A DNA stretch of 32,977 bases, from assembly GCA_010028495.1 (NCBI GenBank), contig RHCX01000009.1, forward strand, positions 1 to 32,977. The letters are read 5' to 3'. Below the pieces are notes generated by a model. That model was not told where the DNA came from and did not search any database. It saw only the letters and a list, made by a program, of their open reading frames with translations. The stretch is from Nitrososphaeria archaeon. Its GTDB lineage: Archaea > Thermoproteota > Nitrososphaeria > Nitrososphaerales > Nitrosopumilaceae. Numbering within the stretch: position 1 is the first letter of the stretch; each line of letters begins with the position of its first letter. Position numbers and translations under genes: made by a program. Positions 19,852-31,152 of this stretch are shown here, in pieces.

Positions 19852-20304
19852 TTATTGATTCAAAAAATCTTCGTACTGAACAAGTTCCTCTATAGCTGAA
19901 ATTTTGCCTCTAGTAATCTGCATCAACCGTTTTTTGTACGTCAAATCAATTCGAGTTCGTCGCTCTAACTGCTCAATTACTTTTCTTGCCAAATAATTCC
20001 CCTTTCTGTCCGAATCAAACAATAAAATCAAATTTTTATCAGATACTGAATCTACGAATTTTGTCATTCCTCTAAATCGATGAAATTCCAAGATTTGCTG
20101 GCTACATCCCAATGACTTGAGTGCCGCTGTGTCTCTTTTTCCCTCCACAATTACAACGCCAGAAGACACATTCAATGAGACGATGAAATCCCGAAGATCG
20201 GAAATCTCATCATATGAAATCTCCACGATTCCTGACATTACATCATAACTAATCTCGTATTGGAGTGAATAATCATGACAAAAAGATGGACAAATTATCA
20301 GCAC
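19852..20304 (-). CDS. Toprim-domain protein (true start may be internal, about 20235)
   Basis: 'GVVIVEGKRDTAALKSLG' and 'LILLFDSDRKGN' Toprim motifs. Confidence 0.82.
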   Translation of the reverse strand: MLIICPSFCHDYSLQYEISYDVMSGIVEISYDEISDLRDFIVSLNVSSGVVIVEGKRDTAALKSLGCSQQILEFHRFRGMTKFVDSVSDKNLILLFDSDRKGNYLARKVIEQLERRTRIDLTYKKRLMQITRGKISAIEELVQYEDFLNQ

Positions 20305-20367
20305 GTACGAACAAAATCTGGATCTTTTCTACGCAACCGTTTTAATAATTTCCGAGTATGATATTAC

Positions 20368-20445
20368 AAGAATCCCCAAAGGTGAATTACAAATTCACTG
20401 TGCCAGCCAAAGGATCTTGGGAGCGCTTTTGAGCTCTCGATTCTT
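20368..20445 (+). ncRNA. Candidate structured small RNA (unknown class)
   Basis: Perfect 7-bp closing stem AAGAATC/GATTCTT enclosing hairpins GTGAATT-ACA-AATTCAC, CCAA-AGGATC-TTGG and GAGC-GCTTTTGA-GCTC; TTTTAATAAT at 20340-20349 is about 25 nt upstream of the first stem base. Not verified by folding or conservation. Confidence 0.45.
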
Positions 20446-20448
20446 TGC

Positions 20449-20688
20449 TTATAAAATATCTCGTCTTGAAAATTCTTCCTGAGCGTTTTTGATTTTCTGA
20501 TCATATGCAATATCATACGTCATATCGACTAGCTCGGCCTTGCTGGAGACCGGTGTAATCTCATCGTCTTTTTCAATAGTGATTTCGTTTTGCAAGTCAT
20601 GCTGTAAATTCAGCAAAACATCAATACTGTCTGCCAGTACCATTCGGACTTCCTTGATATAGTCCACTATATCCTCGCTTGCGCTCAT
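20449..20688 (-). CDS. Small hypothetical protein
   Basis: 79 aa acidic helical ORF. Confidence 0.6.
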   Translation of the reverse strand: MSASEDIVDYIKEVRMVLADSIDVLLNLQHDLQNEITIEKDDEITPVSSKAELVDMTYDIAYDQKIKNAQEEFSRRDIL

Positions 20689-31078: not shown

Positions 31079-31152
31079 GCCAAGGTAGCTCAGCCTGGGA
31101 GAGCACTCCGCTGAAGACGGAGCCGTCGTGGATTCAAGTCCCACCCTTGGCA
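31079..31152 (+). tRNA. tRNA-Phe (anticodon GAA)
   Basis: Acceptor GCCAAGG/CCTTGGC, D-arm AGCTCAGCCTGGGAGAGC, anticodon arm CTCCG-CTGAAGA-CGGAG, T-arm GTGGG-type with ATTCAAG loop, discriminator A; CCA not encoded. Confidence 0.97.

Follow-up and report, generated by a model that had tools for sequence, protein, structure and literature searches.

The intergenic gap between the Toprim gene and the gene for a 79-aa protein in the window, as we call the whole 32,977-nt stretch analysed here, probably harbours a small RNA gene that stands alone and is encoded on the + strand at about 20367-20446. We tentatively regard it as a member of an undescribed RNA family of ammonia-oxidising archaea, a two-hairpin RNA that may regulate in trans, is served by a dedicated single-copy promoter and has outlived a protein-coding neighbour in two species. 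Comparison with congeners of the window genome (G000), which include Ca. Nitrosotenuis, shows the promoter geometry and the two-hairpin fold to be conserved, reveals no reading frame common to the homologues and shows that the RNA persists in two species from which the neighbouring gene is missing. The outcome is a compact, covariation-supported candidate RNA gene of Ca. Nitrosotenuis. Its promoter is defined, its start is predicted, and there are both carrier and non-carrier species, which makes its expression, regulation and loss directly testable.

The first-pass annotation had proposed a structured + strand RNA at this place that is distinct from tRNA, and the database searches agree with it. 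Rfam 15 (4227 families, at the gathering threshold or E up to 1) gave no match at the element in the window or at seven homologous loci, and ARAGORN reported only a tRNA-Phe at 31079 in the window and no tRNA at the element. The features of the locus are listed in Table 1.

Table 1. Features of the RNA locus and its flanking genes in the window.
Feature	Position	Strand	Remarks
Toprim gene	19852-20304	-	Pfam PF01751; flanks the gap
Upstream promoter box, AAAATCTGGATCTTTTCTACGCAACCG	20313-20339	+	Mean pairwise identity 0.76 (8 species)
TATA element, TTTTAATAATTT	20340-20351	+	Mean pairwise identity 0.94
Spacer from TATA to predicted start, 15 nt	20352-20366	+	Length constant, sequence not conserved (mean identity 0.39)
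C-rich unpaired 5' segment, CAAGAATCCCCAAA	20367-20380	+	Near-identical in close copies, recognisable in divergent ones
Hairpin P2, 20381-20388 with 20392-20399, loop ACA	20381-20399	+	Pairs all standard (8 species)
Unpaired linker, GTGCCAGCC	20400-20408	+	Kept in seven species with small changes; unrecognisable in G004
Hairpin P3, 20409-20424 with 20433-20446, UU bulge 20417-20418	20409-20446	+	Two-sided changes; aligned pairs standard (8 species)
79-aa protein gene	20449-20688	-	No Pfam match; other flank of the gap

Promoter and structure of the RNA

The TATA element noticed in the first-pass annotation (TTTTAATAAT at 20340) is real and correctly placed, and it is conserved with fixed spacing. 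Together with a 27-nt upstream box it forms a strongly conserved block (TTTTAATA) ahead of the RNA core, and identity upstream of the box is 0.30 (eight species, ungapped line-up on the core). The box, which is probably a BRE plus an activator site, occurs in one copy per genome when up to three mismatches are allowed. The TATA element is 100% identical in G000 and G015, whereas their spacers share 33% identity. In seven of the eight species the TATA element starts exactly 27 nt before a core anchor of the CAAGAATCC type; the equal offset in G004 lands on CATCCCCC, which points to a short deletion of the AAGA part in this species. Given this fixed spacing, the conserved core begins approximately at the expected start of transcription. 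From the distance to TATA, transcription is predicted to start near the first bases of the C-rich segment, with the 5' end of the RNA near CAAGAAUCC. The element thus has what is expected of an archaeal intergenic sRNA, its own promoter within an intergenic gap, in the form of a conserved box and TATA at a fixed distance.

According to our analysis, the RNA folds into two hairpins, P2 and P3, joined by GUGCCAGCC, with a U-rich loop on P3 (20425-20432). Both strands of P2 are replaced in G016, G009 and G004, and its stems range over GGUGAAUU/AAUUCACU, AAUUUCUGA/UCAGAAAUU, CGACC/GGUCG and GAUCA/UGAUC. Despite this near-complete replacement of the stems in three species, every aligned P2 and P3 pair is standard in all eight. 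Among the five close copies, five pairs are changed on both sides, and 90.6% of the cells pair as compared with 37-53% when the partners are slid. The eight-species structural alignment and its bulges were placed by hand and fitted to the structure; independent weight therefore lies with the model matches (see below), the slid controls and the fold z-scores. On the + strand, the 81-nt core folds better than its shuffles with z = -1.59 for the window copy and -2.0 to -5.8 for the homologues. The check suggested in the first-pass annotation, folding 20360-20450 against shuffles, gave z = -2.34 on the + strand and -0.36 on the - strand.

This arrangement differs from the cloverleaf that had been drawn from the window alone. 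The repeats quoted for it are all present at the positions given, and its hairpin GTGAATT/AATTCAC (20382-20398) holds up and is extended by one G-U pair. The pairing of its GAGC..GCTC arm also holds, not as a separate arm but as the tip of the larger hairpin 20409-20446. The CCAA/TTGG arm (20407-20420) is not conserved in the homologues. As for the proposed closing stem (20368-20374 with 20439-20445), the conserved structure pairs 20439-20446 with 20409-20416 instead, and a change from A-U to G-C in G015 keeps P3 and disrupts the closing stem. We rejected the cloverleaf because the closing stem and the third arm are not conserved and the closing stem competes with P3; the homologues favour two successive hairpins that no stem encloses.

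A small open reading frame is not apparent in the homologues, where no start codon is conserved and the frames are shifted by indels. Inspection by eye revealed neither the boxes of C/D guide RNAs (C RUGAUGA, D CUGA) nor the pseudouridylation pocket and 3' ACA of H/ACA guide RNAs.

Distribution within the genus

The RNA has homologues in 8 of 17 congeneric genomes, with a single copy in each; among the carriers, G012 and G013 are single-contig genomes. A DNA search of 101 relatives gave matches of 81-85% identity to the element in four congeners, and the copies of G016, G004 and G009 were added by a promoter-pattern search and inspection of the orthologous loci. A model (R1) built from the five close copies recovers the three divergent copies, each at its orthologous position (E-values of 5.4e-6 for G009, 8.5e-4 for G016 and 2.7e-3 for G004 in a search of the eight loci); covariation and the slid controls support the pairs as well. 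Named Toprim loci yielded only G001 and one locus identical in sequence to that of G009, and no copy was found in the plasmid records searched. Outside the genus, a scan of 252 genomes of the family gave matches at E 0.02-1, of which the 17 inspected look like coding or other unrelated sequence with no promoter. The strict filters of this family scan missed G016 and G004, so more distant copies may exist.

In a tree of aspS, RNA-bearing species occur in both main lineages of the genus, and one five-species subgroup lacks the RNA. Because carriers are found in both lineages, the tree, whose root is a midpoint placement only, suggests that the RNA dates back to the origin of the genus, with loss at a later stage. 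Several other congeners that gave no match have incomplete genomes, in which a missing element says little. G014 is a complete genome that lacks both the RNA and a gene for a protein of about 240 aa that is discussed below. A stretch of G014 (L005:1456-1477, TAAGCAAATATTTTAAGAATTT) looks like a degenerate version of the promoter of this RNA.

The 47 nt at 20367-20413 differ between G000 and G015 by a single substitution and a single indel. With third positions of aspS 57% identical as the background, this near-lack of change suggests that the RNA itself has remained under selection.

Possible mode of action and known archaeal RNAs

We posit that TBP and TFB would use the TATA element at 20340, aided by the conserved 27-nt upstream box, and that transcription would start at about 20366-20370; both transcription and the exact ends are what we infer. 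The RNA would then measure about 80 nt or slightly more and consist of the C-rich unpaired 5' end, P2, the linker and a long P3 whose loop is usually rich in U. The unpaired 5' end and the linker would base-pair with targets in trans, and P2 and P3 would serve as stabilising or protein-binding hairpins. For a stand-alone RNA, such base-pairing regulation in trans appears to us the likeliest mechanism, a preference we hold with some reserve. Exact 10-nt complements of the two unpaired segments are scattered, mostly within or antisense to coding sequence, and none is common to all six species.

We consider it somewhat unlikely that the stand-alone RNA mainly binds or titrates a protein (the U-rich loop of P3 could, for instance, bind an Sm-like protein) rather than acting by base pairing. 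Such a role would suit the runs of at least four U in or at the P3 loop of seven of the eight species, the preservation of hairpin shape while the stem sequences change, and the lack of conserved exact targets in our search. However, conservation is strongest in the linker and the unpaired 5' end, two segments that more closely resemble binding sites for a second RNA, and the loop of G016 has no U run.

Trans-encoded intergenic sRNAs of a comparable kind have been described in other archaeal lineages (PMC5867862, PMC3510493). The sRNA162 and sRNA154 of Methanosarcina mazei (PMC3510493, PMC5867862) are likewise small and intergenic, with their own promoter and a structure that includes unpaired segments, but they come from a different phylum, no sequence relation was seen, and the present RNA is known from sequence alone. 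Like the present RNA, Tan1 of marine Thalassoarchaea (PMC5069720) is a structured archaeal RNA restricted to its lineage and without an assigned function; it is 229 nt long, belongs to another lineage and was found as an abundant transcript, whereas comparative sequence is so far the only source for ours. Our literature search, which covered few subscription journals, returned no description of the present RNA, and a 2018 review of archaeal regulatory RNAs does not mention Thaumarchaeota.

Relation to the neighbouring genes

The gene for the ~240-aa protein lies directly downstream of the RNA on the same strand in five species (G001, G013, G012, G016 and G004), as would be expected if the RNA were its 5' leader (cis-regulatory, riboswitch-like or an attenuator) and the window copy a leftover after gene loss. 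We regard such a leader as improbable. The gene has a TATA-like element of its own (AATTAAT/GATTAAT) about 30 nt before the ATG in four species, it occurs without the RNA in five congeners (G006, G007, G008, G010 and G002), and G000 and G015 keep the RNA and its promoter without the gene. A switch in which the 5' end would pair with the 5' strand of P3 does not consistently score better than in shuffled sequences (shuffled fractions of 0.045 in G000, 0.085 in G015, 0.11 in G009 and 0.32-0.91 in the other five). With the linkage failing in both directions and no gain of the alternative pairing over shuffled sequences in five of the eight species, we did not assign the RNA to a riboswitch or leader class.

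A stand-alone RNA gene is the most likely reading because the 240-aa gene has its own promoter-like element and the RNA persists without that gene in G000 and G015. Counted against it were the modest fold score of the window copy (z = -1.59), the hand-fitted alignment, the position 5' of a same-strand gene in five species and the negative outcomes of the search for conserved exact targets and for a terminator or 3' end of the RNA. In G000 and G015 a deletion seems to have removed the 240-aa gene and spared the RNA, since the element's end adjoins the stop of the 79-aa gene in both. The aspS tree groups G015 with G013, a carrier of the 240-aa gene; the two gene losses would therefore be independent, or the locus was exchanged.

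A 5' UTR element of the Toprim gene on the minus strand, which the first-pass annotation had allowed for, is very improbable: the Toprim gene does lie downstream on that strand in the window and several relatives, but the minus-strand folds are weaker than those of the + strand, the G-U pairs of P3 exist on the + strand only, the promoter points along the + strand, and in G001 the Toprim gene is about 2.3 kb away, yet box, TATA and RNA are conserved.

The conserved 79-aa protein (20449-20688, - strand) is found in 30 of 101 relatives and has no Pfam or NCBIfam match. The ~240-aa protein, absent from the window genome, is found in 31 of 101 relatives of the order (e.g. L034:701-1420, - strand; L006:737-1501, + strand; L047:1501-2250, - strand) and gave one sub-threshold Pfam match (E 0.11), none in NCBIfam and no significant one in PDB. 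Upstream of its gene, the five congeners without the RNA (L047, L048, L049, L053 and L056) carry an imperfect inverted repeat such as GAACATT-GTACT-AATGTTC. The repeat immediately follows a TATA-like TATTTAA in the interval that separates the Toprim gene from the 240-aa gene, and may be a protein-binding site.
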